Assembly (NCBI RefSeq): GCF_964199755.1
Contig: NC_133903.1
Location: forward strand, 53,497,239 to 53,561,238
Direction of reading: 5' to 3'
Source: Larus michahellis
Taxonomy: Eukaryota > Chordata > Aves > Charadriiformes > Laridae
Length of the DNA stretch: 64,000 nucleotides
The translations under genes and the position numbers were made by a program. A model generated the notes under the pieces. It saw only the letters and a list, made by a program, of their open reading frames with translations, did no database searches and was not told the DNA's origin. Positions 1 through 26,754 of this stretch are shown piece after piece (the stretch's first letter is position 1; every line of letters starts with the position of its first letter).

Positions 1-533
1 CAAGAGGGACATTGAGGTGCTGGAGCGTGTCCAGAGGAGAGCGACCAGGCTGGTGAGGGGTCTGGAGACCAGGGCATGTGAGGAGAGGCTGAGGGAGCTG
101 GGCATGTTTAGCTTGGAGAAGAGGAGGCTGAGGGGAGACCTCATTGCCCTCTACAGCTCCCTGAAAGGAGGGTGGAGAGAGGTGGGTGTTGGCCTCTTCT
201 CCCAGGGGAATAATGACAGGACCAGAGGAAATGGTCTGAAGCTGCGGCAGGGGAGGTTTAGGTTAGATATTAGGAGGAATGACTTTACTGAAAGAGTGGT
301 CAGGCCCCGGAACAGCCTGCCCAGGGAGGGGGTTGGGCCACCATCCCTAGAGGTGTTTAAGAAACGTCTAGATGTGGCACTTCAGGGCATGCTCTAGTGG
401 CAGAGATTGTAGGTTGTTGGGGTTTTTTTTGTTTGTTTGGTTGGTTTTTGTGTGTGTGTGTGTATGGTTGGACTCGATGATCTCAAAGATCCTTTCCAAC
501 CATGAAGGTTCTATGATTCTATGATTCTATGAT
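1..533 (+). mobile_element. CR1 LINE 3' end (copy 1)
   Basis: The open stretch 17-397 encodes the C-terminal tail of the CR1 reverse transcriptase, with the arginine-rich segment typical of the chicken repeat 1 family. It is followed by a short untranslated region with a GT run (about 449-463) and the typical CR1 end, where GATGATCTCAAAGATCC precedes several ATTCTATG units and no poly(A). The window starts inside the element. It is the duplicate of the CR1 at 15170-16302 and was present before the segmental duplication. Confidence 0.93.
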
Positions 534-1974
534 TTTTGTCTTTGGTTTTTAAGCACACTTAAGCATGAGCCTGTGGAGATGCACGTGTTCCCCTGCACTG
601 ACATGAGATGTTCCACTCAAAAAATAAACAAATTAATGCCTCCTTCGTTTGTGGTATGGGATCATTACCTTTAAAAATGGGGGAGGCAGTGGGGGCGTTC
701 CCAACAGATTTTTTTTTAAAAAAAAAAAGAAGAAAAATAGGATTATTTCAATCATTTCTTCTCTCTGTGAGTAGGGAAGGGAACTCTAAAGTAACAGGGA
801 AAGGCAAGTTTGAAATGGAAGATGGAAGGGATCAACATTTGTTTGCTAAGCTGGTGCAAATAATACAAACAGTACCCACATACCAGGGGTCAGACCTACA
901 GCAAAGCGATAAAAAAAATGGAGAGAAGCCAGTGTTTAGTCCTGCATGGCTTTGGAAACTTCATAGGTGAAAAAAAAGTCCACAGATCTTTTATGTTTTC
1001 TCTTTTAGAAAGGAAAAAACACCACCACGGGAGCCTATAACTGCGAAACATTAATTAAAAATGCAATAGGATTAAAATGATCAGTTAGAAGGACGGCTCA
1101 TTGACAAAATCCCTGTGTGCCCGGCGTGGCGGGGATGTGATGTGCAAAGGACTCTCCCATGTGGCACAAATCTGCCACTGCACAGCGATTGCTTTGTAAC
1201 GCGGCAAAGGCGGTTAATGCCAGAGATGGAGGCTAAAGACAGTGGAAATGAAGCTTGATTTAATCCTGTTTCCCTGTTAACTATTCAGTATCCTACATGC
1301 GCGCACACAGAAGAGTCACTTACGAGTGACTTAAAAGTGAGAAGAAACAAAACCAATCATCTTTGCTGTGACTAGATTCCAAACAAAAGCACGCAGGAGA
1401 CAGCCCTTCTAAGCATTAATGCTCGGTCACGTTAAATCGAAAAAAATCTCTGCAAGTTTCATATTTAATTAACTCTTTTCCAAAGAGACCCTGGTGTGGG
1501 CAGAAGCAGTGTCTCCATCGCAGGGGGTGCCATGCCCCCAGCCCACCTCCTCAGCCCCATGCTATGGACATGCCCCTCGTGCCCGGCCACCGATCTTCAG
1601 GAGAAGCGGAAGGGACGGGGGCGAGCTCGTGACTTCCCACCGCAAAGCCTCTGCGCCGACGTTTCCTTCCTGGCAGCCAGCAGTGAGCCGCCACGGGCAC
1701 GACCCTTCCGACACTTTCTGCTGCTTCTCGTTCTGTTGGGCTTCAGCTGACGCGCAACCGCGCGCAATTATTTTTTTTGCCACTTTTCTTTCCCATTGTG
1801 TATTTTACTACCACAGATCTTTTTCGATAAACCTTTCCTGCTCGTACAATTGCAATACTGCATTTTTATAGCCATGGCATGGATGCTGTGGCTCCTCATG
1901 CCATCCCACTTGGGCCGGCCTATGATAGAACCTGCTTCTACTACGCTGTAGCCTCCTAACTAAAATTTCCATAT
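534..1974. other. Gene-free stretch downstream of gene A
   Basis: This is AT-rich intergenic DNA duplicated at about 16303-17741. A short open frame at 608-970 is broken in the other copy by a change in the length of an A run near 715, which argues against coding function. A second open frame at 1494-1871 is intact in both copies but resembles nothing I recognise. An ATTAAA on the minus strand near 1464 could serve as a distant polyadenylation signal for gene A. I saw no AATAAA closer to the gene. Confidence 0.6.
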
Positions 1975-2222
1975 AATGGCTTTAAACTAAAGGAGGGTAG
2001 ATTTAGACTAGAAATAAGGAAGATAGTTTTTACAATGAGGATGGTGAAACACTGGCCCAGGTGGCCCAGAGAGTGGGTGGATGCCCCATTCCTGTAAACA
2101 TTCAAGTTCTGGTTGGATGGGGCTCTGAGCAACCCGATCGAGTTGAAGATGTCCCTGCCCATGTCAGGGGGGGTTGGATTAGATGACCTTTAAAGGTCCC
2201 TTCCAACCCAAACTACTCTATA
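1975..2222 (+). mobile_element. CR1 LINE 3' fragment (copy 1)
   Basis: A degenerate CR1 tail. The text 'aaaggagggtagatttagac' is followed by 'gtggatgccc' and by 'gatgacctttaaaggtcccttccaaccc'-type 3' sequence, the order found in CR1 3' ends. It lacks open frames. It lies 0.7 kb downstream of gene A's stop codon and is duplicated at 17742-17989. Confidence 0.85.
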
Positions 2223-2881
2223 CATGTATGAGATAAAAAAACGCATGATCATGCTGTGAGGATCTCTATTTCCATTGCAAAACAGCAACACGGTGGTGTG
2301 GGGTAAAGCGGGGAACGCATACGAAACAAAGGCCGAGGCCACCTGAACCTCAGGATTGGCCTTGGCCCCCTGGAAGTCCAAACTGGCGCTGAGACATGAA
2401 CCCAGAGCTTCTACGTCCAAGGCCAGCTGCTCCACTGACCAGGGAGACCTCAGAAAACACCAGCCCGTGGCCATTCAGGGTGCTGCAGATGTAAGGGTTG
2501 TGTAATGGTCTCTGAGTGGTGGACGTATCCCCTGTGGAAGAACCACTGTGGCCCCAACTATGCCCATGGTTTTTCAGCTGGAAGACACCTTACTGGGAGG
2601 TGTTAACAGTGGAAATGAAGTAATAAGGCTTTTAAATTCATGCATTTTGTCAAACTGATAGAGGGGAGGAGGCAGGAGGTGAAGGGAAGAGCCCCAAGGG
2701 TTGTCCTCATTGCAGTGTGCAGGATGTGGCCCTCCTGCCCATTCCACTGCCACCTGCGTGTTGGTGGGTGCTAGATGCCCCATCATTTTAGCCCAAAATC
2801 TGCGGGGCAGATGGGAGAAGGGACACTTTCTGGCTTGAGGAGGGCTGAAGCTGTGGGGTGCGGGGTGGCCCTACGCCAGCC

Positions 2882-5800
2882 TCAGTCGCGAGGCAGCGCT
2901 TGGATCTGGAAGGGCTTTGGGCAGCACGTGAGGCTGAGCGTGAAGGCGAAGGTCAGTGTGGTGGCCGCCGGCACCTGGAAGGTGAACTTCTGCAGGAGGG
3001 CTGTGAAGAAGATGAAGAGCTTGGTCCTGGCGAGCTGCTCCCCGGGACAAGCCCGCTTGCCTGGAAAAGGAGCAAAAATAACCCTGCCGAGTCCCGAGCG
3101 AGCTTCAACCGCCTCTCGGGCTCCTCTCGCGCACGCCGCATTGCACAAGCTGTGGGAGCTTTTCTTCCTCGAAAGGTTAGGTGGCAATGTTCACCCACAC
3201 ATTTTGCAGAAACCTTCCCCAGAAGTTTGCTGCTGAGCAAACTGCGACGGCTGCTCGGATAGACTAAGAGAGGAAACTAGGCAAAAAAAAAAAAACATTT
3301 ACGCAGCTTGCGCAAGAGGAAAAAGCCTTATTTTTTTTCATCCTACAATAACAAATTGATTTCCCTCCTGCTCTGAGCAGTCAGCATTAACTGTTACTGG
3401 GATTTTCACCATGGGGATGGGCTGAAAGCCGGACAAGGAGCAGTACCCCCTACTCTGGAGTGGGTGTCTTGGGGAAAAAATAAGCTTTGCAAAAAGGAAA
3501 ACCATCTCCCCATCCATCATCCTACCTGCAGAGAAGGGCAGAAAAGCCTCCCGCCTCCTGTACTGGCCGTTTTCCAGGAAATGTTCAGGATTAAAGGTGT
3601 CTGGAGTCTCCCACACGTTTTTGTCAAACATTATCGAAGTCAGGCTGGTCATCAGGGTGGTGCCCTGCAAGAGGTGGAGAGAACGGGTGATTATGCGAAG
3701 GAGAAGAGCCGACATGTTGTCAGACTAGTTTATTATTAGCTCTGTTCCACACACAATGTAAACTACATTTTTTTTTGAGGGCAAAATGTTTTTTCGTAAG
3801 CTATGTAATTAAATTAGGGTGAAAGCCTACAGGATTGTTCACTTCTGTGCTCCTCTATATATCACCATAGTGTTGATCCGTACCTTGCGCTGCTGTCACC
3901 GGCGATGTTCATATAAACCACCTTTAAATTGACAACGTTGTGTTCCCATAGGAATTTGAAGCAATTTAACTGAATAATTTTCAATTGATCCGCTTTATTG
4001 AGCTTTTTTAAAAAAAGCTGATCTGGTTTATCTCCACAACCTCCACCAGAAAAACAAAAATATTTTAATCAGTGTGGAGCAAATTGCCCGGGTTTTTTTC
4101 TTTTTAATTTTCCTTGATGAAACCAATCATATACATGGAAGAGACTAGGTATATCTAAATCTCATATTTGCTTTCATAATGCCAGAACTGTGTGTTCATA
4201 TCAACATCTATTACCTGGCTTTTATCAACGGCTACTTTTAATAGATAATTGTTAATACCCAAACTGTTTGCATTCCTATGTTTCTTGGCCCTCTATTCCC
4301 ATAATGCTTGGAGGACGTCTTGTATAAGATTTAAGGGATAAACCTTGTAAAACTGAAAATTTTCACAATTCTCCTCCACAAGGAGGTGAGACCCATAGGA
4401 GGAAGGCTTCTATTTTCTATATAACTGTGATATTTCTATAAGATCCTGCTGGTTGGTTCCTCTCCAGGTGAGATCTGGGACTTGGGCCATGAAGACCTCT
4501 CTCTGGTGGGGCAATGGGAGAGCTGGTGGTCTCCACATACTTTGGGCAGGTGGAAGCCTGCCAAGATGGTGTCGCTGGTGGACATCTTGGGCACTCCCAG
4601 CGGCACAACGTTGCCCATCCGCAGGACCTCACTCAGCACCGCGCTGGTGTATGGCATGTTCTCCTTGTCGGCCATGGTGGGCTGGCGGGACTGGCCGATC
4701 ACCGTGTCGATTTCGAGCTGCACTTTCTCTACGGAAAGCAAAAAAAAAAAAAGAATATCTGTGCTCAAAAGGTTCCCAATAAGAAACTTAGGGCTTAGGC
4801 ACGTCCAATGTGGAGTAAAGATGGACATAGCTCCATTTTCTGAGTTTTGCTTATCTGACTTTGGGCTAAACGAAGGACCCATCAGTGTTCCTACCTTGAA
4901 TGCGGGGGTACGCAGCCATGTAGAGCAGAGCCCAGCGGATGGCGGTTGCTGTTGTCTCAGTCCCCGTTAAGAAGAGGTCCAGAGTGGAGCACAGCAGGTT
5001 TTCCTCATGGAAATATGAGCTGGTGTCACCCTTAAACTTGGGGAAAAGCATAGCAATGAAAACTCTTATTAGGGAGGCGATGCTTTCAAGAACCCAGTCC
5101 AATACATAAGTCAAGTCCTGCTGCTATTTTATTATCCATCACCCCTGGGCTTGGAAATTTCTACCCCTTACTTTCATTGAATTTCAAGGCCTGTGAACAG
5201 CTTTGAAAGACACCCTATTTGCTGTAGAGTGACTTTTGAAAGCAGGTAGCGTTTTTAAATGTGAAGTTTCACAATAGCAAACACAGGCCTGTGAGCTCTC
5301 ATAGAAATGTGAACATGTTCCCCGAGAGTCCTCCTACGCCACATGACAGAATGAAAAATGGAAGAAGACAAAGTGTAAATACTTTCAAATGAAAAAAAAA
5401 AAAAAATCAGTATGTTTTCAAAGTGATCAGGCTCCTGCTGTTGCTAAAAAGTTTGAGTTTGACGGGGAAGAGGTAGGGAGGAGAAGGCAACGCAGGAGGC
5501 ATGGGCTCCTGTGACAAAACAGCTTTGAGTCCCGTCTGTTCATTTCTTGGGTTAAGATTTAGGTGGCTTTAGGTATTTCTCTCTTACTTTTTCTATTTCC
5601 TGCAGGTAACAGTCAATATAATCTCCTGCCTCGGACTGGTCCAAATCCTCCTTGTGCTTTGCGATCACTCCCTTCAAAAAATATTGAAGTTTCTCCTGGT
5701 GCCTGAAGATTTTCCTAAAGGGTCCTGGTAGCCATCTCATGATCAAAGGAAAAGCATTATACAGCTGGTGAGAAATCAAACAGAGCAAAAGAGCATTTCT

Positions 5801-8800
5801 TGAGTTGAAAAAAAAAAGCAGGTACCACAGTTGAGATGATAGTACAATTTTTTAGCTCTGCTTGCTACCAGGAAACAAATCAGTTTTGCTGCAAAGGTCA
5901 GTTTAGTTACACAGATGTAAACAAGTACAAACGAGATACGAATTGGCCAGATGTTTTCTGCTGATCAGGTTCTCTAATATTGGCTGGCCAAAGCTGTCAC
6001 CAGAGTCATAAGGCGGCCACCAGAGTCATAAATCAGCGTGGATGAAGAGGAGCCCCTTGGTGCTGGGATCTGTGGAGGGGACAGAGATCAGACCTGGCCC
6101 ATGGTGTGTGGCCATGCAGAATGGCTAGGGGCAGTCTGTCCCCAGATCCACCTGCTTGCGTCAGAAACCTGGACTCTCAGATGGTTTTGTCCTAAATAAA
6201 AGCTATTTGAGAAACTGTTTGGGAGAGGGGTAGGGGAAAAGAAGGGAACTTTCACCGACAGTGCTACTAATTGACTCTTCTTTTTGTAGAAACATAGATA
6301 TTTTTAAGGTTTTTCCACTGCTCTTCAGTTATGTTCAGGCATGAGATTGCTTTTACAACCCTGCAGTGGTTTTTCTCCGTGACCCTCAACAATTTTAACT
6401 TGCTTCCTTACTTTCCTGATGGATTTTGTGTATAAACCCAGTCTAAGGTAAAACAATACTCGTGGTCATTTCCCTTATAACATGACTCTTTTTCTACAGG
6501 GAAAAGCAGATTACATCTGCTTAGAAACTCCAGTTTCCGAGCTCTTACACGCAGCTGAAGGTAGAAAAGCATCCGACCGGTTTTACCTGGCCCCAGAAAC
6601 TTCCCATGAGCAGCAGCATTTCTGCCAGTGAATGCAGTAATTCCTGGAAACGGTTGTCATGGTAGTCAAAGCGGTTCCCAAAAGTTATGGAACAGATGAT
6701 GTTCGAAACAGCACTGTTAATTTTGTAATGAGGGTCAAATGGTTGTCCTGGAGGAAACAAAGTGAAAGACAGCTTGCTTTTTTTTTCTTTAAAATCTCAG
6801 TCTAACCCACGTGCTCTACCACATCAACAGTTGGGAAGTTGGGGTGAGACCTTACTTATTTTTCACCTATGGTGATGCTAAGGCTTCACCCCCTGTCTTG
6901 GGGTCCCCACCACCCCCATCACCTCCAGTGTCCCATTGGAGGTTGGATGTGTGCCACAACATCCGTCCTCTGAGGACATCCCCTCCCGTCTCCAGCTCAG
7001 GCTATTGGCACACACCAACGTTAGCACAGAGCTGCCGAAGCAGGGTTTGAACTGTTTTCCAGGGAAAACAACCAGTAGGATGCCACGCTATGGCTGTCGG
7101 GTTTGCATGCTCCAAAATGGCTTTGGTGCCAATTTTAAATGCCAAGAGAGGGTCCCTTGAAGCTTAGCCTGGGGCAGGGAGCCCAGGACTAACCACACTG
7201 CAAAAATGCCATTGCACTGGCCTCTAACTGTCCACCACAAAGAAATAAAGTGGGATGGGAGAGAAGGGAGAGGGTGAGGATTGCACGTCTTTGCGGCTGC
7301 CTATAAAGTCCAGCACGATCTCACATGGCCCATAGATATGGTGCACATCATAACTCCTAAAAATCTCAAAAAGAAGTGTGGTGTGACGTTTGTCACATCC
7401 GCATTTCTTGGGAGAACTACCAAGCTGAGACCACCATCTCCTAGGGCACGTTTAGGCAACCTGGAGAGCTACTTGCCATGATACGAGAGACTAACACCAG
7501 TAACTGATCCAGTCCAGCCCTGAGCTGCTGTCGCTACGCGTGGGAGCATCGCTTTGGGATGCAAGGCACTGCGCGCAGGGCTGCTCATCTCTCCGCTCTT
7601 CAAGAAAGTAATTAAACCGGGCTGGTGCTCAGATATTAGAGTGACGGACATGATCACTATTTGTCATTACTAATGGGAAGAAAGGCCCAAACCAGCAGCT
7701 TAATTAGTTTATTGATTAGGACTATAAAGGACTATAATCAATTGGCAACATGAAGTATTTGGCCTGTTCAGTGCAACGGCAATTAAAATGGAGCAAGTTC
7801 AGTATATAATTTCACAATTCCTATTTAGATCTTTCTTGTTTACTATATATAGCTCCATAGAATTATCTAAACCCCATCTGCTTCTATTTAAAGCTGAAGT
7901 GCAACATCACCCATGTACCAACATACAAATTATTCTTACTAATATCCCTCTGGCAGTTCTTAAAAGCTGGACCATAAAAGAGCAAGGCACACGCTTCATC
8001 TGTGCACGATACAAAAGGAAAGCCTGACTAAACAAGTTTTAAAATACTTTGCGAAACCAAGGACAAGCAGAGGTTAACTAAGCCTCGGAGCATACGTGCC
8101 TGATAGCAGGAGAGCTGCGTTTATTCCTCCGCAGAATACAGGAGAGACTTTCTTAGCTATATAAACATGCGAGCTTTAGCAAACGCCTAGTATCTATTTG
8201 CTTAATATTAATAAGGAAGAACTAAAATAGGAGGCCTGAAGTCTAAAAGAAGTGCCGAGAGGCACAGTCTGGAAGTGTAGGATAGAGATTTGAGCTATCG
8301 AAGAAATATTTTGCACGTTAGGAGCTGCATTAGAGTAAAAGTTTCACTTCTCATCATTAATTTAGCTGGAAGCTTTGGGCACGGTGCTGTACCTTAACCG
8401 CCCACCTTTCTCCTCCTCGATCGTCTCCACAAGGTACCGGCTCTCCTCTTGCACTTTTTCCTCAAAACTTACAGCAATGCTTTTCAGAGTTGCTGCAGCA
8501 AACTTCCTCTGTTGCCTCCAGATATGCCCGTTTGATGATATGAGCCCTGCAGGTGGAAAAAGACAAGCGAACGAACCTCACTCTGGGTCACGTATGAGCG
8601 ATAGGATTCAGAAATGGCCCTTTGTCTTGAACGAAAACCCCAAACCAAAGCAAACAAACCCCGCAGACGTTGAAAAACCATGGCTTTGCCTGGGAATTAA
8701 AATTCAAGAGTAATTGGCTCATGCCAAAGATCTAGCTTTATGGATTTGCTGTAATCTGCTACTTTGTCACTTTGCGTGGGAAAAAAAGGTGTAAGCCAAA

Positions 8801-10971
8801 ATACTATAAGTACTATCACGCTGTTGGCAGAGCTGCAGGCAGGAGCACCATACCCCGTCTCTGGAGCTATATGCAACCCAGGGGAGGAAAAGTAAAAGAG
8901 AAATTAAAACCAAGGGGAAACTCTTCAAGTGTATCGATCGCTGGGCAGCTTGCGCTTATTTCTCCTCTTTCATCAGGACCTGACTTTGATCCCATCATCA
9001 TCCCTAAGTCCCAGAGAGATTAAAATGTACATCTGTGAGATTATTAGACTCAATTCAATTCTTGTCTTCCTCTCTGCAAGCTTTTACGGGTGCAGTTACC
9101 AAGGACTGAATTCAGCCTCTTTCACTCTAATTGTTATCATTGCAAATAGACGAAAAAGAAATGTACCAAAATCGCCATAGCTGTGCTTACCAAAGCCTCT
9201 AAATATTTCTTGGAGAAGTGGAATATTTGGCCGATCTACAAATATTTCAGCCTGGTGGACAAGCGCTTCTCTCACCATTTGGTATCCGTTGACTACCACA
9301 AAAGTCAGACTTCCAAACTGCACGCTGAAGATGTTCCCGTACCGACCAGTAAGCTGGAAGAGAGTTCATCGCCCTCTGAGAGCAAGAAGATGGAGATTTT
9401 TCAAAACTCACCTGGACAAGGCCTCAAGAAATGGTTTATAACTTTGAATTTAGTCCTGCTGGGAGCAAGGGGACTTAAGAAAAACCCAAACCCAAGACTG
9501 CAGGTCACATCCAACCTAAACTAGTCCGTGAAGGTTGGAGATGGTGTAAAAAATGTTAGAGAGGTGTGGTGTGGGAGAGATGGTTTGCTTATATTTGTTA
9601 ACAGGTATGACCCGGGTTTCACCAGGCGGTTGCATCAATTTAACTTGTAAAAAGGACATTAGTTGCTTTGTAACTGATGGGCATCTGCTCCATCTCTTTT
9701 CATTACAGGAAGGGTACAAGAGCTGAAGGCACTTGTCCTTGCATGGACTTTGCTGGCATTATTGTCTCCTGTGCAGTGTTCAACTCACGATGTATAAGAG
9801 CAAAGGGTGATCATATAATGTCTTGTGCCCCACTCTAGCAAGGAGCTCAGGCCATCCTCTTCTTAATATGAGTCTACATGATAGGACACACATGATCATC
9901 CTGAACTGCCATGGTGACTCAGAAAACCAGTCTGGGGACCAAATGGGTGTCTCAGTCGTTGTGTGAATGTAAATGAATGTGACTGATTTTATTAATAATA
10001 ATTGTGTGCGTTGACAAAATATCCTGAGCATGCTGCCTCAGCCTTCCCCAAGGGTCCCCCTGGGGATACCCGTGCTTGTAGCCTGTGAAAACCCAGGGTA
10101 GGTAAGCTGGTGTCAGCCTGCTAAGTAAAACCATGAGACAAATAGTCCCTAGAAAGGGTATTTGCAACCAGCAAGTCAGAACTTTTCCTTTCGCGTTTTC
10201 AGAGAAGCATACTCAGCACGTATAAAATGTCACTCTCTTGTTGGCATTAGTGGGATTCAAAGCTCTGGAAACCTTTCCAGAGCAATCGCTGCCTCCTTCT
10301 GTGATGTAGGAGAAGCCACAGGGATGCTTAACTCAGGGTCTTAAATGTTTGTTTTAGATGTAATGGGGCAAATCATTGGCCTCTGGCCAAAGACAATGAC
10401 AATACAATTTCCAGAGGTGATATTCACAGTCCAAACCGTTCATTTGCCACACAGCACTTGCCATCCCTCCCCCAGCCTGGCCCAGCACCTCCAAACCCTT
10501 CCTGAGCTCCAGCAGAAAATGGTCGGGGTGGGAAGAAAGAGGAGGAGAACGTAAATCTTCCTCCATTACAAGTTTCTTTCCCGTTGAACCTTCCTACTCC
10601 CATGGAAGAGGAGGTGATAGTAAGAGATAAAACCAAGAAGGGGCGTCCCTCATGCATGGGTATTATATAGCTAGTCCTTCAGCCCTTGCTTCACAGGCTT
10701 GGTGACAAAAGTCACTGAAGAGGTAAAATATTGTTAGTAGAAGAAATGCCCATGGAGCTCTTACCTTCTGCAGCTCAAGATGGAGGGGCTGCTTAAAGTC
10801 CACAAAGGTTCCCACGAGAGGAAAGAGCCGTGGCCCTGGAGGGAAATTCTTGGGACGTCTCTTTTTCACAAGGTCAATAATCAAAAGAAACGTGACCAGA
10901 ACCACCAAAACAGTCTGCCCATTCAGCTTTTCCAAGAAAGAAACAAAATCAGGCCAAAACCGAAGCTCCAT
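2882..10971 (-). CDS. CYP2J19: Gene A: cytochrome P450 CYP2J, complete, nine exons (probable CYP2J19 copy)
   Basis: An ER-membrane heme monooxygenase of family CYP2J. Exons in gene order: 10765-10971, 9191-9353, 8406-8546, 6587-6747, 5588-5764, 4895-5036, 4541-4728, 3526-3664, 2882-3060. All introns are GT-AG with matching phases, giving 498 residues (human CYP2J2 has 502). Exon 1 holds the hydrophobic membrane anchor and the FPPGP hinge. Seen motifs: C-helix WRQQR (133-137), I-helix TGTETT (307-312, Thr where Ala or Gly is usual), K-helix ExxR (364-367), heme loop FSAGKRACPG with Cys444 as ligand. The start ATG is at 10969-10971; an in-frame GTG 18 bases upstream is not a plausible eukaryotic start. 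Odd points: exon 3 is three codons shorter than gene C', and residue 453 is Lys where gene B and the CYP2 family have Glu. The CYP2J call is firm. The CYP2J19 symbol, and thus a carotenoid 4-ketolase role, rests on synteny and memory. Confidence 0.9.
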
Positions 10972-12085
10972 CTTGGCTGATGAACTCACAGATTTTCATC
11001 CCAGGAAGGGACTTGGTGCTGGTGTTATATTTGCTCAAACAGGAGTAAGAAAAGACTAAAAAGAAAATGAAACAAGTTAAGATGCTGATAGCTTATTGGG
11101 GGCAGGACTTGCCATGGGTGAGCTGCTTTCCTATATACAGCTAGTGCCAGACCACCTGCTGAATAACTAATTTTAAACACTGGGATCTCCAAAACCAACC
11201 CCAAAACCTCAAATGTTTGGCCAAACAAAAGCAATCTTGCAACACTTAAGCTTTACATCTCTGCCAACTCCCTAATTTTCTTACGGAAGAATATTTCTCC
11301 CTTCTGCCCTTAACAAGGAGCTCCTTTATACAGACACCTAGCTGGGATTATAAGCATTACAAACATTTGAGGTTAGGTGAAAGCAGCTTACTTGGCTAAT
11401 TACATACAGTGGGAGTTGCATAATTTAAAAAACGGTAAGGCATCTGAGGTGATGGACACCATACAAGTCGTTAAGGGGCTGATCCTGTTAAGTGCTAAGC
11501 ACCGTCTGCGAAGGGCTGAATGCCTTCAGCGCCCACCAAAGCCTGCCCGGCTTGGCCAGAGCCAGCAGGTGAAGTTCAGAAGCACTGCGAGAGCCCAGGG
11601 CTCTGCCCAGCCACTTAAATGAGAGTTAAAGGAGCTTAATTGCGAGAGTGAGAACATAGGCTCACGCCCCTGCCAGCTAAAGGAGAGATTGGAATTTAGG
11701 CATTTAAATCTCCTGGGTTCTCCGAAAATCTCCTTCGAATAAAGCTTCGCTCAGTCCTGGGGGAAGGCTGCAGTGGACTGACCTTTGTGACCATGAATCA
11801 ACCTCATGTCGCTTGCCAATATTTTAGCTACATCTTGTTTCCAGCTTTTTTTTTCTTTTTTATTTTAAGGGATTTACTTTGCAAAAAAAATTTGGTATTC
11901 TCTAGTCTTTCACCGCTCTTAAAAGCTTTGCTGTCCATGTCTTTCATAACCTTCATGACTACAGTGCCAGCAGGAGCACACACAGGCTGTATGTCAGACC
12001 CGCACCTTAGTTATTGCAGGAGTTCCTTTAAAGGGTAATACCTATCTGCAACCCAACGCTTCTTGGTTTGAAATATTATTTACAG
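10972..12085. other. 5' flank of gene A shared with gene B
   Basis: About 1.1 kb of upstream DNA, nearly identical to 26702-27815. It contains the likely core promoter and no coding exon. Beyond 12085 the flanks of the two genes are unrelated, so this block is the largest cis-regulatory region the two paralogues can share on their 5' side. Confidence 0.8.
11025..11099 (-). promoter_or_regulatory. Candidate core promoter of gene A (TATA-like and CCAAT)
   Basis: On the gene strand an AAATATAA element (11025-11032) lies about 55 bases before the start codon, and a CCAAT box (11095-11099) lies about 65 bases further upstream. This is the usual order and roughly the usual spacing of a TATA/CCAAT promoter and would give a short 5' UTR of about 30 bases. 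Placement is by motif only. Confidence 0.4.
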
Positions 12086-13863
12086 ATTTCCGTCTCGTCG
12101 ATCAGCCGCAGCAATTTTTGGAAGTCCTCATCATGGTAGTCAAACCGGTTGCCAAAGGTGACAGAGCAGATGATGTTTGAAATGGCGTTGTTGATTTTAA
12201 AGTGAGGGTTGAAAGGGTTCCCTGGAGAAGGAAAAGGTAACAATCAATTCTCTTCCATCCTTCACAGAAAACGAGAAGAAAACACAGTTGTCGGAGGTAA
12301 AATATTGAACAAATATGACTGAAACGAGTGGCCCCTGATGGGCAACATTCTGTGTCACTGCTCTCCCGCGACACCTCGCCCCTCTATGAGCTGGCCAAGT
12401 GTGGCTGGGCAGCCCCAGTGTGGAGCAAACATCCCACCCTCGGTCCTGGTTCAATCAGATTATGGAGGTGTTTATTTACTTTGGAAAGCAAGGTCTGCAG
12501 AAGAGTGGACATCACTTGAATTCATTGGAAACACTGGTGCTTACGCACCCATGGGATTTTCCAGAAATCTCCAAGAGAGCAGTAGGCTGAAGGCGGGTTA
12601 CGAATGACACTTTGGATGTTTGAGGGCAAAACACCTGTAAAAGGGAGCTGGGATGCTGGATGCTTATGAGGCCCGTGGCACTCACCCTGCTCATCCCTAA
12701 ATGCATCCACAAGGCATTGTGACTCCTCCTGGATGCGCTCCTCCAGGCTCCTCTTCCCCAAGCCAAAGTTTCGGAGGGTGGTCAAGGTGAACCTTCTCTG
12801 CTGCTTCCACAAGTGCCCATTGGAGGAGACAAGTCCTGTCAGAAACATGCCACCGTGAGCCAAGGCAGATCCCTCCACCGAGGGGAAAAAGCTCCAGAGC
12901 TCTCCCTTATCTCCAGCCGTCTTGGACCTTTGCAGGGTCAATGCTTTGACCTTACAGCTGATCTCAGGGATCTGAGGGATAACTCACCCCTTTTGCTGAA
13001 GACCTCACTGTCGATAGGAATTTCAGGGCGATCCATGAAGTTTTCCGCTTGGTTTACAAGAACTTCTTTAATCAGTCGCAGCCCATTTACACACACAAAT
13101 GATGTGCTGCCCATCTGCATGTGGAAGATGTCCCCGTATTTTTTAGTAAACTGGAAGAAAGAGGAGAAATAAATAAAAGGGGTTTTATTTGCAATGAATG
13201 TGTCTGTTGAGACAGAGACAGCCCTGGCAGGGGAGACAGGTGAAAATACGGGAAGCCAAGAGACGGAGAGGAGGTGGGGTGTTTTCACAAGTATCTGCTT
13301 GTCTGCATGCAGTCTTTTTCCTTTTTTCCTGGATCACGGGTCAGGAGTTGGGGTTAGTCGGCCACAAATCAAGTGGAATTCTCTAGGTTTGATTTTTCCA
13401 TCCTGTGTTTTTCCAGCTTTTGTTTCACACCCTTCCAGTCCCTGGTCAGACCTACCGGGGTCCTACAGCTCCACGCTTGTCCCCCTCCTCGTACCCGGGC
13501 AAACTTCATCCACGTTGCTGCTGACTGAGGGTAAACCTCCTGACTACCCTGGGGTGAGCTCCACCGAGTCCTCATGGGCCATGGGTCTTGTGTTAACCCC
13601 CTCACCACGCTGCAAAGGTTGCGTAGCTGCAATTCCCTCCATCCCCTTCTCCATGGTGCCCACCACCCCTGTACCTTCTCCACCATGATGTGGGGATCGT
13701 TGAAGTTCAGCATGTGGATGTGCCCCACGAAGGGGAGGCGGAAGGGGCTGGGAGGGAAATGCTTCGGCTTTCTGTTCTTCATGTAGTCAGCGACGAGCAG
13801 GAAGACGACGAGGAAGATGAGGAGCATCTGGAAGGAGATGCTGTCCCAGAAGAAGCGCAGCAT
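12076..13863 (-). pseudogene. Gene C': 5' fragment of a second CYP2J gene, truncated in exon 4 by the duplication junction
   Basis: Exons in gene order: 13675-13863 (ATG at 13861-13863), 12988-13150, 12686-12835, and a partial exon 4 from 12221 down to about 12086. Splice sites and phases (0, 1, 1) match the CYP2 pattern. The product starts with a membrane anchor and an FPPSP hinge (Ser instead of the usual Gly), then C-helix WKQQRRF and the conserved NFGLGKRS segment of CYP2J proteins. Exon 4 reads normally to Glu-Thr and then runs into gene A's upstream DNA, meeting TAA at 12076-12078. Exons 5-9, with the I-helix, ExxR and heme cysteine, are missing, so the 215-residue product cannot be a P450 enzyme. 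The clean splice sites point to a recent break. The intact parent, possibly CYP2J40, should lie left of the window. Confidence 0.88.
12084..12092. other. Tandem duplication junction
   Basis: Left of this point the sequence follows the right end of the duplicated unit, as at 27800-27815. Right of it lies CYP2J exon 4 coding sequence. Both sides share TTTCC (12087-12091 and 27817-27821), preceded by a one-base mismatch, so at most about five bases of microhomology are present. No CR1 or other long repeat sits at the junction, which favours end joining or replication-based template switching over recombination between repeats. Confidence 0.85.
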
Positions 13864-15169
13864 GGGTGGATGGTGGGGCTCCACGGGGACGTGTCCCGCA
13901 GCAGGTCAGGGTAGATCAAGCTCACGGTGCACCGCTGAACCTCCTAGGGACAGGGGGAGAGGGACGATGTGCTGGCGCAGCTGTGGGCACAAACAGAAGA
14001 CAGCATGGAGTGGCTTTTGCTGACCTGGCGTGGAGGCTATGTTCAGACTCCTGCTTTCTCAGGTTTCAGCAAGGACCGTTTGGTTAAACCCTTTCTTGAT
14101 TAAGCTCATCCATTTCCTCTGATCTCATTTAAAAAAAACCAAACACAGAACAGAGCTCTCCTCCCCCTTCCCACTGCAGCTTCGCAAAACCCCAGCGCTC
14201 CACGTCCTTGTCTAAAGGACAGAAATGAGCTTTGCAGAGCCGGGATTAAAGCCTCCCGGCAGCCTGGCCGTGCCGTTCCCACGAGCCCCGCTCTCCCCTC
14301 CCTGTGGTGCCCTCACCGTGCCACGTCCCGGCGTTGGCTCCTCGGTGCCAGGGAGGCTCCAGCTGCTCTGAGCACCTTGCACTTTCCTCGTTTGCAGGAG
14401 CTCGTTGGCTGGTACAGAGTGTCACAGACTGAGCCCCAGGTCGGTGGGGGCATCTGAGATAAGGTTGCATAAACCTTTCGCAAACCACCTGACTCCTGGG
14501 TTGAGGTTTCAGTGGGTCAGGGTGCTATGGGCTGGAAGCAAACAGCCGTCCGGGATCTGCAGCTGTTTCTAGGCACTGTCATTTCCTGATCTCCCTCTGC
14601 CAGACAAGCGCAAGCAGAGCAACCTGCTCCGGCCATGAGGCTGGCCCTGCCCCGAGCCCTCCAGCCATCCCTTCCCCACCTTTGAGTCCGTGGCCCGCGC
14701 CAAAGCCGTGCCCAAAGCCCAGCAAAGCTGAGGTGGGCGCTGAAAAGCCGAAGCAGATGCCCAGCTCTGCAGGCTGTGGCCCTTCAGTGGCAGCTGGTGG
14801 CGGGCTGTGCTGAATTTTCCCATCTAAGAGGGGCCCTGAGGCAGGTAGCTGGTCACGCACGTACGCCACATTTGATCTGGACGTGTGTGTTGAGTTTTAT
14901 TGTAGAAGAAACAGGGGCATTCCCAGCAGCACTTTGCTATTGCCCCATACAGCCCCGCCACGGCTGTTTGTGGTCGTCAGCTCCCACCTCACGCTCCAGG
15001 GCATGACTTGGGTTCGTTTGCTCTCTTTTGGGGCCGTCGGTCTTGTCCAGTGCCAAAAACAAGCACAGAGGTGCAGCAGCGCTGCTGGAGCAAGAGTGAA
15101 GCTGCTGCATAACTGTTACACTTAAGAAACTTTAAAAAGTTAAATCACGTTTTATTGTGGAACTTGAAG
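13864..15169. other. Gene-free 5' flank of gene C'
   Basis: This carries the upstream sequence of the truncated P450 and is single-copy within the window. It is moderately GC-rich with scattered CpGs near 13900-14350 and 14640-14720. I found no convincing TATA box and no further exon. The left copy of this region is predicted to lie outside the window, in front of the intact gene C. Confidence 0.6.
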
Positions 15170-16302
15170 GGGATAAAACTGTTTTCGAGGAGGGTTAAAA
15201 ACTGGCTGGATGGCCGTGCCCACAGAGTTGTGATTAATGGGGTGAAATCCTCTTGGAGGCCGGTCACCAGTGGTGTCCCTCAGGGCTCAGTTTTGGGGCC
15301 AGTTTTGTTTAATATCTTTATCAACGATCTGGATGAGGGGATTGAGTGCACCCTCGGTAAGTTCACAGACGACACCAAACCAGGTGGGAGCGTTGATCTG
15401 CTTGAGGGTAGGAAGGCTCTACAGAGGGGCCTGGACAGGCTGGATCCATGGGCCAAGGCCAACTCTATGAGTGTTAATAAGGCCAAGGGCCGGGTCCTGC
15501 ATTTTGGTCACAACAACCCCAAGTAACGCTACAGGCTTGGGGCAGAGTGGCTGGAAAGCTGCCCGGCAGAAAAGGACCTGGGGGTTCTGGTGGACGGCCA
15601 GCTTAACATGAGCCAGCAGTGTCCCCAGGTGGCCGAGAAGGCCAACAGCATCCTGGCTTGTATCAGGAATAGCGTGGCCAGCAGGAGCAGGGAAGTGACC
15701 GTGCCTCTGTAGTGGGTGCTGGTGAGGCCTCACCTCGAGTGCTGTGTCCAGTTCTGGGCCCCTCTGTACAAGAGGGACGTTGAGGTGCTGGAGCGTGTCC
15801 AGAGGAGAGCTACCAGGCTGGTGAGGGGTCTGGAGACCAGGGCATGTGAGGAGAGGCTGAGGGAGCTGGGCATGTTTAGCTTGGAGAAGAGGAGGCTGAG
15901 GGGAGACCTCATTGCCCTCTACAACTCCCTGAAAGGAGGGTGGAGAGAGGTGGGTGTTGGCCTCTTCTCCCAGGGGAATAATGACAGGACCAGAGGAAAT
16001 GGTCTGAAGCTGCGGCAGGGGAGGTTTAGGTTAGATATTAGGAGGAATGACTTTACTGAAAGAGTGGTCAGGCCCCGGAACAGCCTGCCCAGGGAGGGGG
16101 CTGAGCCACCATCCCTAGAGGTGTTTAAGAAACGTCTAGATGTGGCACTTCAGGGCATGCTCTAGTGGCAGAGATTATAGGTTGTTGGGTTTTTTTTTGT
16201 TTGGTTGGTTGGTTTTTGTGTGTGTGTGTGTATGGTTGGACTCGATGATCTCAAAGATCCTTTCCAACCATGAAGGTTCTATGATTCTATGATTCTATGA
16301 TT
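15170..16302 (+). mobile_element. CR1 LINE, 5'-truncated, with reverse-transcriptase remnants (copy 2)
   Basis: The 15155-15526 frame encodes the reverse-transcriptase core, including [11 protein letters not shown] and an FTDD version of the catalytic FADD motif. The same frame continues past an in-frame TAA (15524-15526) and TAG (15713-15715) to the C-terminal part ending at 16165, followed by the CR1 3' end with ATTCTATG units. With its 5' end missing and two stops, the element is dead. Its 3' part is present again at 1-533. Confidence 0.93.
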
Positions 16303-17741
16303 TTTGTCTTTGGTTTTTAAGCACACTTAAGCATGAGCCTGTGGAGATGCACGTGTTCCCCTGCACTGACATGAGATGTTCCACTCAAAAAATAAACAAA
16401 TTAATGCCTCCTTCGTTTGTGGTATGGGATCATTACCTTTAAAAATGGGGGAGGCAGTGGGGGCGTTCCCAACAGATTTTTTTTAAAAAAAAAAAAGAAG
16501 AAAAATAGGATTATTTCAATCATTTCTTCTCTCTGTGAGTAGGGAAGGGAACTCTAAAGTAACAGGGAAAGGCAAGTTTGAAATGGAAGATGGAAGGGAT
16601 CAACATTTGTTTGCTAAGCTGGTGCAAATAATACAAACAGTACCCACATACCAGGGGTCAGACCTACAGCAAAGCGATAAAAAAAATGGAGAGAAGCCAG
16701 TGTTTAGTCCTGCATGGCTTTGGAAACTTCATAGGTGAAAAAAAAGTCCACAGATCTTTTATGTTTTCTCTTTTAGAAAGGAAAAAACACCACCACAGGA
16801 GCCTATAACTGCGAAACATTAATTAAAAATGCAATAGGATTAAAATGATCAGTTAGAAGGACGGCTCATTGACAAAATCCCTGTGTGCCCGGCGTGGCGG
16901 GGATGTGATGTGCAAAGGACTCTCCCATGTGGCACAAATCTGCCACTGCACAGCGATTGCTTTGTAACGCGGCAAAGGCGGTTAATGCCAGAGATGGAGG
17001 CTAAAGACAGTGGAAATGAAGCTTGATTTAATCCTGTTTCCCTGTTAACTATTCAGTATCCTACATGCGCGCACACAGAAGAGTCACTTACGAGTGACTT
17101 AAAAGTGAGAAGAAACAAAACCAATCATCTTTGCTGTGACTAGATTCCAAACAAAAGCACACAGGAGACAGCCCTTCTAAGCATTAATGCTCGGTCACGT
17201 AAATCGAAAAAAATCTCTGCAAGTTTCATATTTAATTAACTCTTTTCCAAAGAGACCCTGGTGTGGGCAGAAGCAGTGTCTCCATCGCAGGGGGTGCCAT
17301 GCCCCCAGCCCACCTCCTCAGCCCCATGCTATGGACATGCCCCTCGTGCCCGGCCACCGATCTTCAGGAGAAGCGGAAGGGACGGGGGCGAGCTCGTGAC
17401 TTCCCACCGCAAAGCCTCTGCGCCGACGTTTCCTTCCTGGCAGCCAGCAGTGAGCCGCCACGGGCACGACCCTTCCGACACTTTCTGCTGCTTCTCGTTC
17501 TGTTGGGCTTCAGCTGACGCGCAACCGCGCGCAATTATTTTTTTTGCCACTTTTCTTTCCCATTGTGTATTTTACTACCACAGATCTTTTTCGATAAACC
17601 TTTCCTGCTCGTACAATTGCAATACTGCATTTTTATAGCCATGGCATGGATGCTGTGGCTCCTCATGCCATCCCACTTGGGCCGGCCTATGATAGAACCT
17701 GCTTCTACTACGCTGTAGCCTCCTAACTAAAATTTCCATAT
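16303..17741. other. Gene-free stretch downstream of gene B
   Basis: Duplicate of 534-1974. It differs by a shortened T/A run near 16480 and a 1-bp deletion near 17200, plus scattered substitutions. No exon was found. Confidence 0.6.
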
Positions 17742-17989
17742 AATGGCTTTAAACTAAAGGAGGGTAGATTTAGACTAGAAATAAGGAAGATAGTTTTTAC
17801 AATGAGGATGGTGAAACACTGGCCCAGGTGGCCCAGAGAGTGGGTGGATGCCCCATTCCTGTAAACATTCAAGTTCTGGTTGGATGGGGCTCTGAGCAAC
17901 CCGATCGAGTTGAAGATGTCCCTGCCCATGTCAGGGGGGGTTGGATTAGATGACCTTTAAAGGTCCCTTCCAACCCAAACTACTCTATA
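17742..17989 (+). mobile_element. CR1 LINE 3' fragment (copy 2)
   Basis: Exact positional counterpart of the fragment at 1975-2222, carried along in the segmental duplication and not a separate insertion. Confidence 0.85.
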
Positions 17990-18648
17990 CATGTATGAGA
18001 TAAAAAAACGCATGATCATGCTGTGAGGATCTCTATTTCCATTGCAAAACAGCAACACGGTGGTGTGGGGTAAAGCGGGGAACGCATACCAAACAAAGGC
18101 CGAGGCCACCTGAACCTCAGGATTGGCCTTGGCCCCCTGGAAGTCCAAACTGGCGCTGAGACATGAACCCAGAGCTTCTACGTCCAAGGCCAGCTGCTCC
18201 ACTGACCAGGGAGACCTCAGAAAACACCAGCCCGTGGCCATTCAGGGTGCTGCAGATGTAAGGGTTGTGTAATGGTCTCTGAGTGGTGGACGTATCCCCT
18301 GTGGAAGAACCACTGTGGCCCCAACTATGCCCATGGTTTTTCAGCTGGAAGACACCTTACTGGGAGGTGTTAACAGTGGAAATGAAGTAATAAGGCTTTT
18401 AAATTCATGCATTTTGTCAAACTGATAGAGGGGAGGAGGCAGGAGGTGAAGGGAAGAGCCCCAAGGGTTGTCCTCATTGCAGTGTGCAGGATGTGGCCCT
18501 CCTGCCCATTCCACTGCCACCTGCGTGTTGGTGGGTGCTAGATGCCCCATCATTTTAGCCCAAAATCTGCGGGGCAGATGGGAGAAGGGACACTTTCTGG
18601 CTTGAGGAGGGCTGAAGCTGTGGGGTGCGGAGTGGCCCTACGCCAGCC

Positions 18649-21600
18649 TCAGTCGCGCAGCAGCGCTTGGATCTGGAAGGGCTTTGGGCAGCGCGTGAGG
18701 CTGAGCGTGAAGGCGAAGGTCAGTGTGGTGGCCGCCGGCACCTGGAAGGTGAACTTCTGCAGGAGGGCTGTGAAGAAGATGAAGAGCTCGGTCCTGGCGA
18801 GCTGCTCCCCGGGACAAGCCCGCTTGCCTGGAAAAGGAGCAAAAATAACCCTGCCGAGTCCCGAGCGAGCTTCAACCGCCTCTCGGGCTCCTCTCGCGCA
18901 CGCCGCATTGCACAAGCTGTGGGAGCTTTTCTTCCTCGAAAGGTTAGGTGGCAATGTTCACCCACACATTTTGCAGAAACCTTCCCCAGAAGTTTGCTGC
19001 TGAGCAAACTGCGACGGCTGCTCGGATAGACTAAGAGAGGAAACTAGGCAAAAAAAAAAAAAACATTTACGCAGCTTGCGCAAGAGGAAAAAGCCTTATT
19101 TTTTTTCATCCTACAATAACAAATTGATTTCCCTCCTGCTCTGAGCAGTCAGCATTAACTGTTACTGGGATTTTCACCATGGGGATGGGCTGAAAGCCGG
19201 ACAAGGAGCAGTACCCCCTACTCTGGAGTGGGTGTCTTGGGGAAAAAATAAGCTTTGCAAAAAGGAAAACCATCTCCCCATCCATCATCCTACCTGCAGA
19301 GAAGGGCAGAAAAGCCTCCCGCCTCCTGTACTGGCCGTTTTCCAGGAAATGTTCAGGATTAAAGGTGTCTGGAGTCTCCCACACGTTTTTGTCAAACATT
19401 ATCGAAGTCAGGCTGGTCATCAGGGTGGTGCCCTGCAAGAGGTGGAGAAAACGGGTGATTATGCGAAGGAGAAGAGCCGACATGTTGTCAGACTAGTTTA
19501 TTATTAGCTCTGTTCCACACACAATGTAAACTACATTTTTTTTTGAGGGCAAAATGTTTTTTCGTAAGCTATGTAATTAAATTAGGGTGAAAGCCTACAG
19601 GATTGTTCACTTCTGTGCTCCTCTATATATCACCATAGTGTTGATCCATACCTTGTGCTGCTGTCACCGGCGATGTTCATATAAACCACCTTTAAATTGA
19701 CAACGTTGTGTTCCCATAGGAATTTGAAGCAATTTAACTGAATAATTTTCAATTGATCCGCTTTATTGAGCTTTTTTAAAAAAATCTGATCTGGTTTATC
19801 TCCACAACCTCCACCAGAAAAACAAAAATATTTTAATCAGTGTGGAGCAAATTGCCCGGGTTTTTTTCTTTTTAATTTTCCTTGATGAAACCAATCATAT
19901 ACATGGAAGAGACTAGGTATATCTAAATCTCATATTTGCTTTCATAATGCCAGAACTGTGTGTTCACATCAATATCTATTACCTGGCTTTTATCAACGGC
20001 TACTTTTAATAGATAATTGTTAATACCCAAACTGTTTGCATTCCTATGTTTCTTGGCCCTCTATTCCCATAATGCTTGGAGGACGTCTTGTATAAGATTT
20101 AAGGGATAAACCTTGTAAAACTGAAAATTTTCACAATTCTCCTCCACAAGGAGGTGAGACCCATAGGAGGAAGGCTTCTATTTTCTATATAACTGTGATA
20201 TTTCTATAAGATCCTGCTGGTTGGTTCCTCTCCAGGTGAGATCTGGGACTTGGGCCATGAAGACCTCTCTCTGGTGGGGCAATGGGAGAGCTGGTGGTCT
20301 CCACATACTTTGGGCAGGTGGAAGCCTGCCAAGATGGTGTCGCTGGTGGACATCTTGGGCACTCCCAGTGGCACAACGTTGCCCATCCGCAGGACCTCAC
20401 TCAGCACCGCGCTGGTGTATGGCATGTTCTCCTTGTCGGCCATGGTGGGCTGGCGGGACTGGCCGATCACTGTGTCGATTTCGAGCTGCACTTTCTCTAT
20501 GGAAAGCAAAAAAAAAAACTTGGGGCTTAGGCACGTCCAGTGTGGAGTAAAGATGGACATAGCTCCATTTTCTGAGTTTCGCTTATCTGACTTTGGGCTA
20601 AACGAAGGACCCATCAGTGTTCCTACCTTGAATGTGGGGGTACGCAGCCATGTAGAGCAGAGCCCAGCGGATGGCGGTTGCTGTTGTCTCAGTCCCCGTT
20701 AAGAAGAGGTCCAGAGTGGAGCACAGCAGGTTTTCCTCATGGAAATATGAGCTGGTGTCACCCTTAAACTTGGGGAAAAGCATAGCAATGAAAACTCTTA
20801 TTAGGGAGGCGATGCTTTCAAGAACCCAGTCCAATACATAAGTCAAGTCCTGCTGCTATTTTATTATCCATCACCCCTGGGCTTGGAAATTTCTACCCCT
20901 TACTTTCATTGAATTTCAAGGCCTGTGAACAGCTTTGAAAGACACCCTATTTGCTGTAGAGTGACTTTTGAAAGCAGGTAGCGTTTTTAAATGTGAAGTT
21001 TCACAATAGCAAACACAGGCCTGTGAGCTCTCATAGAAATGTGAACATGTTCCCCGAGAGTCCTCCTACGCCACATGACAGAATGAAAAATGGAAGAAGA
21101 CAAAGTGTAAATACTTTCAAATGAAAAAAAAAAAAAAATCAGTATGTTTTCAAAGTGATCAGGCTCCTGCTGTTGCTAAAAAGTTTGAGTTTGACGGGGA
21201 AGAGGTAGGGAGGAGAAGGCAACGCAGGAGGCATGGGCTCCTGTGACAAAACAGCTTTGAGTCCCGTCTGTTCATTTCTTGGGTTAAGATTTAGGTGGCT
21301 TTAGGTATTTCTCTCTTACTTTTTCTATTTCCTTCAGGTAACAGTCAATATAATCTCCTGCCTCGGACTGGTCCAAATCCTCCTTGTGCTTTGCGATCAC
21401 TCCCTTCAAAAAATATTGAAGTTTCTCCTGGTGCCTGAAGATTTTCCTAAAGGGTCCTGGTAGCCATCTCATGATCAAAGGAAAAGCATTATACAGCTGG
21501 TGAGAAATCAAACAGAGCAAAAGAGCATTTCTTGAGTTGAAAAAAAAAAGCAGGTACCACAGTTGAGATGATAGTACAATTTTTTAGCTCTGCTTGCTAT

Positions 21601-24600
21601 CAGGAAACAAATCAGTTTTGCTGCAAAGGTCAGTTTAGTTACACAGATGTAAACAAGTACAAACGAGATACAAATTGGCCAGATGTTTTCTGCTGATCAG
21701 GTTCTCTAATATTGGCTGGCCAAAGCTGTCACCTAATGTAAGGCGGCCACCAGAGTCATAAATCAGCGTGGATGAAGAGGAGCCCCTTGGTGCTGGGATC
21801 TGCGGAGGGGACAGAGATCAGACCTGGCCCATGGTGTGTGGCCATGCAGAATGGCTAGGGGCAGTCTGTCCCCAGATCCACCTGCTTGCGTCAGAAACCT
21901 GGACTCTCAGATGGTTTTGTCCTAAATAAAAGCTATTTGAGAAACTGTTTGGGAGAGGGGTAGGGGAAAAGAAGGGAACTTTCACCGACAGTGCTACTAA
22001 TTGACTCTTCTTTTTGTAGAAACATAGATATTTTTAAGGCTTGTCCACTGCTCTTCAGTTATGTTCAGGCATGAGATTGCTTTTACAACCCTGCAGTGGT
22101 TTTTCTCCGTGACCCTCAACAATTTTAACTTGCTTCCTTACTTTCCTGATGGATTTTGTGTATAAACCCAGTCTAAGGTAAAACAATACTCGTGGTCATT
22201 TCCCTTATAACATGACTCTTTTTCTACAGGGAAAAGCAGATTACATCTGCTTAGAAACTCCAGTTTCCGAGCTCTTACACGCAGCTGAAGGTAGAAAAGC
22301 ATCCGACCGGTTTTACCTGGCCCCAGAAACTTCCCATGAGCAGCAGCATTTCTGCCAGTGAATGCAGTAATTCCTGGAAACGGTTGTCATGGTAGTCAAA
22401 GCGGTTCCCAAAAGTTATGGAACAGATGATGTTCGAAACAGCACTGTTAATTTTGTAATGAGGGTCAAATGGTTGTCCTGGAGGAAACAAAGTGAAAGAC
22501 AGCTTGCTTTTTTTTTCTTTAAAATCTCAGTCTAACCCACGTGCTCTACCACATCAACAGTTGGGAAGTTGGGGTGAGACCTTACTTATTTTTCACCTAT
22601 GGTGATGCTAAGGCTTCACCCCCTGTCTTGGGGTCCCCACCACCCCCATCACCTCCAGTGTCCCATTGGAGGTTGGATGTGTGCCACAACATCCGTCCTC
22701 TGAGGACATCCCCTCCCGTCTCCAGCTCAGGCTATTGGCACACACCAACGTTAGCACAGAGCTGCCGAAGCAGGGTTTGAACTGTTTTCCAGGGAAAACA
22801 ACCAGTAGGATGCCACGCTATGGCTGTCGGGTTTGCATGCTCCAAAATGGCTTTGGTGCCAATTTTAAATGCCAAGAGAGGGTCCCTTGAAGCTTAGCCT
22901 GGGGCAGGGAGCCCAGGACTAACCACACTGCAAAAATGCCATTGCACTGGCCTCTAACTGTCCACCACAAAGAAATAAAGTGGGATGGGAGAGAAGGGAG
23001 AGGGTGAGGATTGCACGTCTTTGCGGCTGCCTATAAAGTCCAGCACGATCTCACATGGCCCATAGATATGGTGCACATCATAACTCCTAAAAATCTCAAA
23101 AAGAAGTGTGGTGTGACGTTTGTCACATCCGCATTTCTTGGGAGAACTACCAAGCTGAGACCACCATCTCCTAGGGCACGTTTAGGCAACCTGGAGAGCT
23201 ACTTGCCATGATACGAGAGACTAACACCAGTAACTGATCCAGTCCAGCCCTGAGCTGCTGTCGCTACGCGTGGGAGCATCGCTTTGGGATGCAAGGCACT
23301 GCGCGCAGGGCTGCTCATCTCTCCGCTCTTCAAGAAAGTAATTAAACCGGGCTGGTGCTCAGATATTAGAGTGACGGACATGATCACTATTTGTCATTAC
23401 TAATGGGAAGAAAGGCCCAAACCAGCAGCTTAATTAGTTTATTGATTAGGACTATAAAGGACTATAATCAATTGGCAACATGAAGTATTTGGCCTGTTCA
23501 GTGCAACGGCAATTAAAATGGAGCAAGTTCAGTATATAATTTCACAATTCCTATTTAGATCTTTCTTGTTTACTATATATAGCTCCATAGAATTATCTAA
23601 ACCCCATCTGCTTCTATTTAAAGCTGAAGTGCAACATCACCCATGTACCAACATACAAATTATTCTTACTAATATCCCTCTGGCAGTTCTTAAAAGCTGG
23701 ACCATAAAAGAGCAAGGCACACGCTTCATCTGTGCACGATACAAAAGGAAAGCCTGACTAAACAAGTTTTAAAATACTTTGCGAAACCAAGGACAAGCAG
23801 AGGTTAACTAAGCCTCGGAGCATACGTGCCTGATAGCAGGAGAGCTGCGTTTATTCCTCCGCAGAATACAGGAGAGACTTTCTTAGCTATATAAACATGC
23901 GAGCTTTAGCAAACGCCTAGTATCTATTTGCTTAATATTAATAAGGAAGAACTAAAATAGGAGGCCTGAAGTCTAAAAGAAGTGCCGAGAGGCACAGTCT
24001 GGAAGTGTAGGATAGAGATTTGAGCTATCGAAGAAATATTTTGCACGTTAGGAGCTGCATTAGAGTAAAAGTTTCACTTCTCATCATTAATTTAGCTGGA
24101 AGCTTTGGGCACGGTGCTGTACCTTAACCGCCCACCTTTCTCCTCCTCGATCGTCTCCACAAGGTACCGGCTCTCCTCTTGCACTTTTTCCTCAAAACTT
24201 ACAGCAATGCTTTTCAGAGTTGCTGCAGCAAACTTCCTCTGTTGCCTCCAGATATGCCCGTTTGATGATATGAGCCCTGCAGGTGGAAAAAGACAAGCGA
24301 ACGAACCTCACTCTGGGTCACGTATGAGCGATAGGATTCAGAAATGGCCCTTTGTCTTGAACGAAAACCCCAAACCAAAGCAAACAAACCCCGCAGACGT
24401 TGAAAAACCATGGCTTTGCCTGGGAATTAAAATTCAAGAGTAATTGGCTCATGCCAAAGATCTAGCTTTATGGATTTGCTGTAATCTGCTACTTTGTCAC
24501 TTTGCGTGGGAAAAAAAGGTGTAAGCCAAAATACTATAAGTACTATCACGCTGTTGGCAGAGCTGCAGGCAGGAGCACCATACCCCGTCTCTGGAGCTAT

Positions 24601-26701: not shown

Positions 26702-26754
26702 CTTGGCTGATGAACTCACAGATTTTCATCCCAGGAAGGGACTTGGTGCTGGTG

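Follow-up and report, generated by a model that had tools for sequence, protein, structure and literature searches.

A recent tandem duplication probably doubled a CYP2J19-position gene and cut a copy of its neighbour in Larus michahellis

P450 genes at the locus

The window analysed here is a 64,000-nucleotide stretch of Larus michahellis DNA (contig C12, positions 53497239-53561238 of a 1.4055-Gb assembly). It carries two intact P450 genes, A and B, and a half-gene, C'; an intact gene C lies to the left of the window, where coordinates are negative. The left-to-right order is intact C, A, half-gene C' and B, and the genes are placed as follows:

2882..10971, minus strand: gene A, an intact nine-exon CYP2-type P450 of 498 aa in the CYP2J19 position
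12076..13863, minus strand: half-gene C', a 215-codon frame without the heme-binding half
18649..26701, minus strand: gene B, a copy of A with all nine exons intact (498 aa, 5 residues different)
From -1908, left of the window: gene C exons 1-3
-3647..-3807, left of the window: gene C exon 4
-3968..-4144, left of the window: gene C exon 5
-4406..-4541, left of the window: gene C exon 6
-4686..-4873, left of the window: gene C exon 7
-5374..-5512, left of the window: gene C exon 8
-6265..-6440, left of the window: gene C exon 9, with the stop at -6440

Genes A and B both have open frames of 1497 nt with GT/AG sites at 8/8 introns. Nine coding positions separate the two, with five residue changes (Q279K, R328H, K453E, C485R and P496L, A to B); of the nine differences, 5 are non-synonymous and 4 synonymous (ratio 0.36), too few for judging selection. 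Gene A matches Pfam PF00067 over positions 1-461 of 462, the best solved relatives of gene B are CYP2B4, 2R1, 2B6 and 2C8, and an NCBIfam search with gene A gave matches that were all far below the cut-offs. The P450 heme motif follows the pattern FxxGxRxCxG and reads FLPFSAGKRACPG in A and B and FVPFSLGKRSCLG in C. Gene C is intact across nine exons (1479 nt, 492 aa, no internal stop), the start of exon 6 having been chosen as the sole fitting acceptor. The Pfam scan covered A and C', and C was classed by comparison with A, to which it is 55% identical.

HOOK-family exons lie at C12:53.474-53.484 Mb, ~7 kb past the end of gene C, and NFI-family exons at C12:54.05-54.11 Mb, ~0.5 Mb past B, giving the gene order HOOK - C - A - C' - B - NFI; which HOOK and NFI paralogues these are was deduced from position. 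In birds, CYP2J19 sits between CYP2J40 and NFIA, according to the available portion of one published account (PMC7534441). At this locus, A and B lie between the CYP2J40-place gene and NFI, and C adjoins them on the HOOK side, the paralogue being by position HOOK1. The published avian order is the same, which puts C in the place of CYP2J40, a name given by gene order only, and makes A and B, likewise by gene order only, probably CYP2J19. Some published dimensions differ from ours, which counts against these names, as far as the available text of the two sources gives them: the C frame of 1479 nt compares with 1482 bp for CYP2J40, the A/B frame of 1497 nt with 1431 bp for CYP2J19 (the published frame may start elsewhere), and the 4.8 kb that separate the stop of A from the start of C (~1.1 kb of this being a retroposon) with a distance within 4 kb (all PMC5812113). 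From start to stop, gene C spans 4.5 kb and gene A 8.1 kb; the published length of cardinal CYP2J19 is 8,982 bp (PMC7534441). The literature text available on primers or residues that tell CYP2J19 from CYP2J40 held no usable letters.

Related genes were also seen elsewhere in the assembly. At C10:50946013-51085616, ten copies of another CYP2-type P450 stand in tandem at a spacing of 15.08-15.12 kb, and long matches in the portions of this array that were compared, namely two to three copies at its start and its end, are 99.5-99.9% identical. HOOK-family exons occur on C41, which also has NFI-family exons, and on C38. These copies are likely gametologs on Z and W, and the animal is therefore probably female. 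C38 also holds a COX1-like fragment (24834303-24834839), the sole COX1 match, with 8 TGA codons, which specify tryptophan in the mitochondrial code; it is probably a nuclear mitochondrial insert. The transferrin family, which lies on chicken chromosome 9, gave at least 24 matches, on C10 and C17 and with none listed on C12, so a GGA8/9 fusion of C12, as assumed for a parrot, was dropped.

Two head-to-tail units with one joint

Genes C (in part), A, C' and B lie on two units, identified by self-alignment, that meet at a single joint:

-3778 to 12091 (1..12091 in the window), unstranded: duplicated unit 1
12090..27821, unstranded: duplicated unit 2
12090..12091, unstranded: joint of the units, with a shared CC (right end GTTTCC/AGTTGG versus left end GGCCAACC/GTCTCG)

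Self-alignment of the window, counting matches of ≥120 bases, gave two rows, in which 1-4750 corresponds to 15769-20518 (99.4%) and 4778-12091 to 20510-27821 (99.6%). Extension to the left adds -3778..-3209, which corresponds to 12090..12659, and -3109..4750, which corresponds to 12662..20518 (both 99.3%). The units are 15.7-15.9 kb long, are arranged head-to-tail and are 99.5% identical. At the right edge the copies are alike up to 12091/27821 and diverge completely beyond, and unit 1 has its left edge at -3778, as the joint predicts. The joint reads ATTTCC/GTCTCG, with a microhomology of 2 bp. No N bases occur in the window or in 60 kb of fetched flanks. The locus has the marks of a tandem segmental duplication: copies head to tail, a single novel joint and, among the assembly matches listed, a unique flank on either side.

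A sequence-only reading of the window had proposed that the duplicated segment begins in exon 4 of gene C, ends 1.1 kb upstream of A/B and thereby creates a half-gene, and it had foreseen a complete gene C whose exon 4 would lie ~3.7 kb beyond the left edge of the window. These proposals hold. Measured from the start codons of A and B, the unit stops 1,118-1,120 bp upstream, the joint falls inside C' exon 4, and a 40-kb left extension contains exon 4 of C at 3.65-3.8 kb, with the second copy of exons 1-4 followed by exons 5-9 through to the stop. An intact gene C elsewhere was not found among the assembly matches listed.

The assembly search scores the best candidates, so its row counts are lower bounds. 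With the C' stretch it gave at least 17 rows, of which 3 at 99-100% identity are C' and C (the latter in two pieces) and 14 are paralogue rows at 74-82%; with the 3' half of C it gave at least 7, namely C itself and 6 paralogue rows at 74-84%. Among the matches listed there are two copies of the 5' half of C and one of the 3' half, and a query with 26600-29800 returned two rows, itself and a match stopping at the unit edge. Together these results form the pattern of one tandem duplication. We consider it very probable that the locus arose by a recent tandem duplication with breaks in gene C exon 4 and 1.1 kb upstream of A/B.

The half-gene C'

On the minus strand, C' comprises exons at 13863-13675, 13150-12988 and 12835-12686 and the cut exon 4 at 12221-12090. 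Exons 1-3 have normal splice sites and are identical to those of C (0/502 nt differ). Exon 4 is cut at ~131/161 nt (130-132, with the end at 12090-12092, by placement of the shared CC), close to the ~135 bases given by the sequence-only reading, which had also seen that C' turns into the upstream flank of B and meets a stop 10-20 bases on. Past the joint the frame continues as GAA ATC TGT AAA TAA (Glu-Ile-Cys-Lys-stop), and the stop (12078-12076) begins 12-14 nt beyond the joint. The predicted protein has 215 aa, of which the first 211 are those of gene C, and it matches the Pfam p450 domain at positions 1-180 of 462 only; the heme-binding C-terminal half is absent, the stop falling after 215 codons.

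C' keeps the upstream DNA of C, and its expression would be expected to follow that of C. With the splice donor of exon 4 gone, C' most likely yields a short transcript, and what this encodes would be, at best, an inactive 215-aa fragment. One candidate signal for the transcript end was read:

11859..11864, minus strand: AATAAA, a possible poly(A) signal for the C' transcript (motif only), 212 bp past the C' stop

This AATAAA is a weak guide to where the transcript would end, because C' itself contains three further AATAAA/ATTAAA motifs (13189, 13072 and 12476) and the 1.4 kb past the A stop, scanned likewise, contains none.

A different fate for C', itself compatible with a tandem duplication, is that the half-gene remains active: transcribed from its own promoter, exons 1-3 would be spliced to exons 4-9 of A to yield a chimeric CYP2J40-CYP2J19 protein. 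The two genes share a strand, with C' immediately upstream of A, C' exon 4 lacks its splice donor, and a fusion of C' exons 1-3 with A exons 4-9 stays in frame (495 aa from 1488 nt, with a single stop at the end); a junction to A exon 3 is also open, with exon 3 then present twice. However, the first acceptor that such a transcript would reach is that of A exon 2, where the frame is shifted and a stop follows at codon 203, and the AATAAA at 11864 comes before A. We regard a chimeric product as unlikely and favour the inactive fragment.

Divergence between the units

The units differ at 79/15,730 aligned columns (0.50%; 81 substitutions were first counted, and 2 just left of the breakpoint were dropped) and by six indels, including one of 97 bp that is present in C and missing from C' intron 3 and one of 36 bp that is present in A and missing from B. 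The substitutions are unevenly spread, with 24/1,131 columns in a retroposon that we take to be CR1-type from its end repeat and 55/14,599 elsewhere. The retroposon copies and the longest unchanged stretch are:

About -590 to 540 (1..540 in the window), unstranded: CR1-type retroposon of unit 1, bounds by eye
15178..16308, unstranded: CR1-type retroposon of unit 2, 2.1% from the unit 1 copy versus 0.38% elsewhere
6314..9807 (22044-25537 of unit 2), unstranded: stretch without substitution, spanning A/B exons 2-4

In a permutation test that left out the CR1-type element and collapsed clusters, the longest gap of 3,498 columns among 47 events was significant (P = 1.4e-4, 100,000 permutations), and the identical 3.5-kb stretch of A and B is likely the product of gene conversion after duplication. 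Birds accumulate 2-3 substitutions per site per billion years; at 0.4-0.5% divergence this places the duplication at roughly one million years, as a rough figure. Two local features were also seen. The divergence between the CR1-type copies is >5x that of the rest of the unit and includes several adjacent-base changes, so the element has perhaps been overwritten by conversion from another copy. At 6000-6010 / 21734-21740, a substitution cluster accompanies a 2-bp indel where A has a second copy of a short motif that also stands 20 bp downstream; this cluster looks like a small template switch.

The same divergence bears on whether the two units could instead be two haplotypes of one locus that the assembly laid end to end. 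A value of 0.50% is possible between two haplotypes, differences of 0.5% fall within the allelic range in birds, and identical stretches beside diverged ones would also fit, in which case the identical A/B stretch would reflect shared ancestry rather than conversion. Against this, the joint stands in continuous sequence without N and with an overlap of 2 bp only, and an overlap-based assembler should not build such a joint from haplotypes unless a read crosses it. The copies are further separated by the 97- and 36-bp indels, and an extra copy of the 5' half of C elsewhere was not found among the assembly matches listed. A heterozygous or false duplication is unlikely because the joint has no N and, beyond the shared CC, no overlap, and we rate the end-to-end haplotypes as improbable. 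The tandem duplication remains the preferred reading.

Origin of the joint

A shared sequence of ≥2 bp arises in 16% of random joins in the region, so the microhomology at the joint is at chance level. No repeat of ≥80 bp was found at both unit ends, as judged from self-blast rows of ≥80 bp and from the joint sequence. With only 2 bp shared and no long repeat at the ends, end joining or template switching is favoured over repeat recombination. The two breaks, in gene C exon 4 and 1.1 kb upstream of A/B, would have been joined with ≤2 bp shared, either by end joining or by replication template switching. Unequal crossing-over, whether involving homologous repeats or the paralogous fourth exons of C and A, is extremely improbable: one break does lie inside exon 4 of C, and exon 4 of C' is 79% like that of A over 98 bp, but the other break lies 1.1 kb upstream of A/B exon 1 and not within exon 4, and the unit ends share no repeat of ≥80 bp in the self-blast rows. 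A repeat-mediated (NAHR) origin was also considered and is ruled out by the joint sequence.

Possible consequences for A and B

The native upstream flank is kept by B, and A keeps the proximal 1.1 kb only. Since B retains this native upstream control DNA, it would be likelier than A to bear the original expression pattern. Position 453, just after the heme motif, is lysine in A and glutamate in B, C and CYP2B4; as Lys453 replaces a residue shared by all three, gene A may be impaired. A more far-reaching idea, to which we assign a low probability, is that B, with its full native upstream DNA, keeps an eye role and that A, severed from distal control and behind the C' promoter, gained the CYP2J40 expression domain, possibly as an in-frame chimera. 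If true, the duplication would have split the functions of a redness gene in a bird lineage other than that of zebra finch.

Comparison with known systems

Partial duplicates at the edges of tandem duplications form a general class, in which one copy is intact and one is cut. The pair C and C' is no different in principle. An annotation or marker drawn from the 5' half of the CYP2J40-place gene would count two genes where one exists.

In the portions of the literature available, the red ketocarotenoids of bird eyes, as well as those of red beaks and feathers in several birds, are described as requiring CYP2J19 together with BDH1L. A survey of 70 bird genomes, as its available text has it, recovered full-length CYP2J19 in 43 species and duplicates only in zebra finch (PMC5812113). 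For woodpeckers, the available text of a later study reports that the downy woodpecker reference contains three CYP2J2-like genes and that read depth hints at copy-number change in flamebacks (PMC12456116). Unlike at the present locus, that text does not describe a breakpoint or a cut copy, and its marker gene was judged nearer CYP2J40 (PMC12456116).

The closest known system is the zebra finch CYP2J19A/CYP2J19B cluster (Mundy et al. 2016, via PMC5812113, PMC7534441 and PMC12456116), located at 3.18-3.20 Mb on chromosome 8 (PMC7534441; the present locus is at 53.5 of 58.4 Mb on C12), where, as far as these sources describe it, two copies lie between CYP2J40 and NFIA, as they do here by position. 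In zebra finch, an insertion of 11,322 bp on the downstream side of CYP2J19 accounts for the extra DNA (PMC7534441, available text), whereas here it is a 15.7-15.9-kb unit that includes half of a CYP2J40-position gene. CYP2J19 duplication is thus already known from zebra finch, and the locus described here is probably a further case, of an ordinary kind of recent duplication; with its base-exact joint, such a case would permit a direct test of whether CYP2J19 duplication repeatedly frees a copy for coloration.
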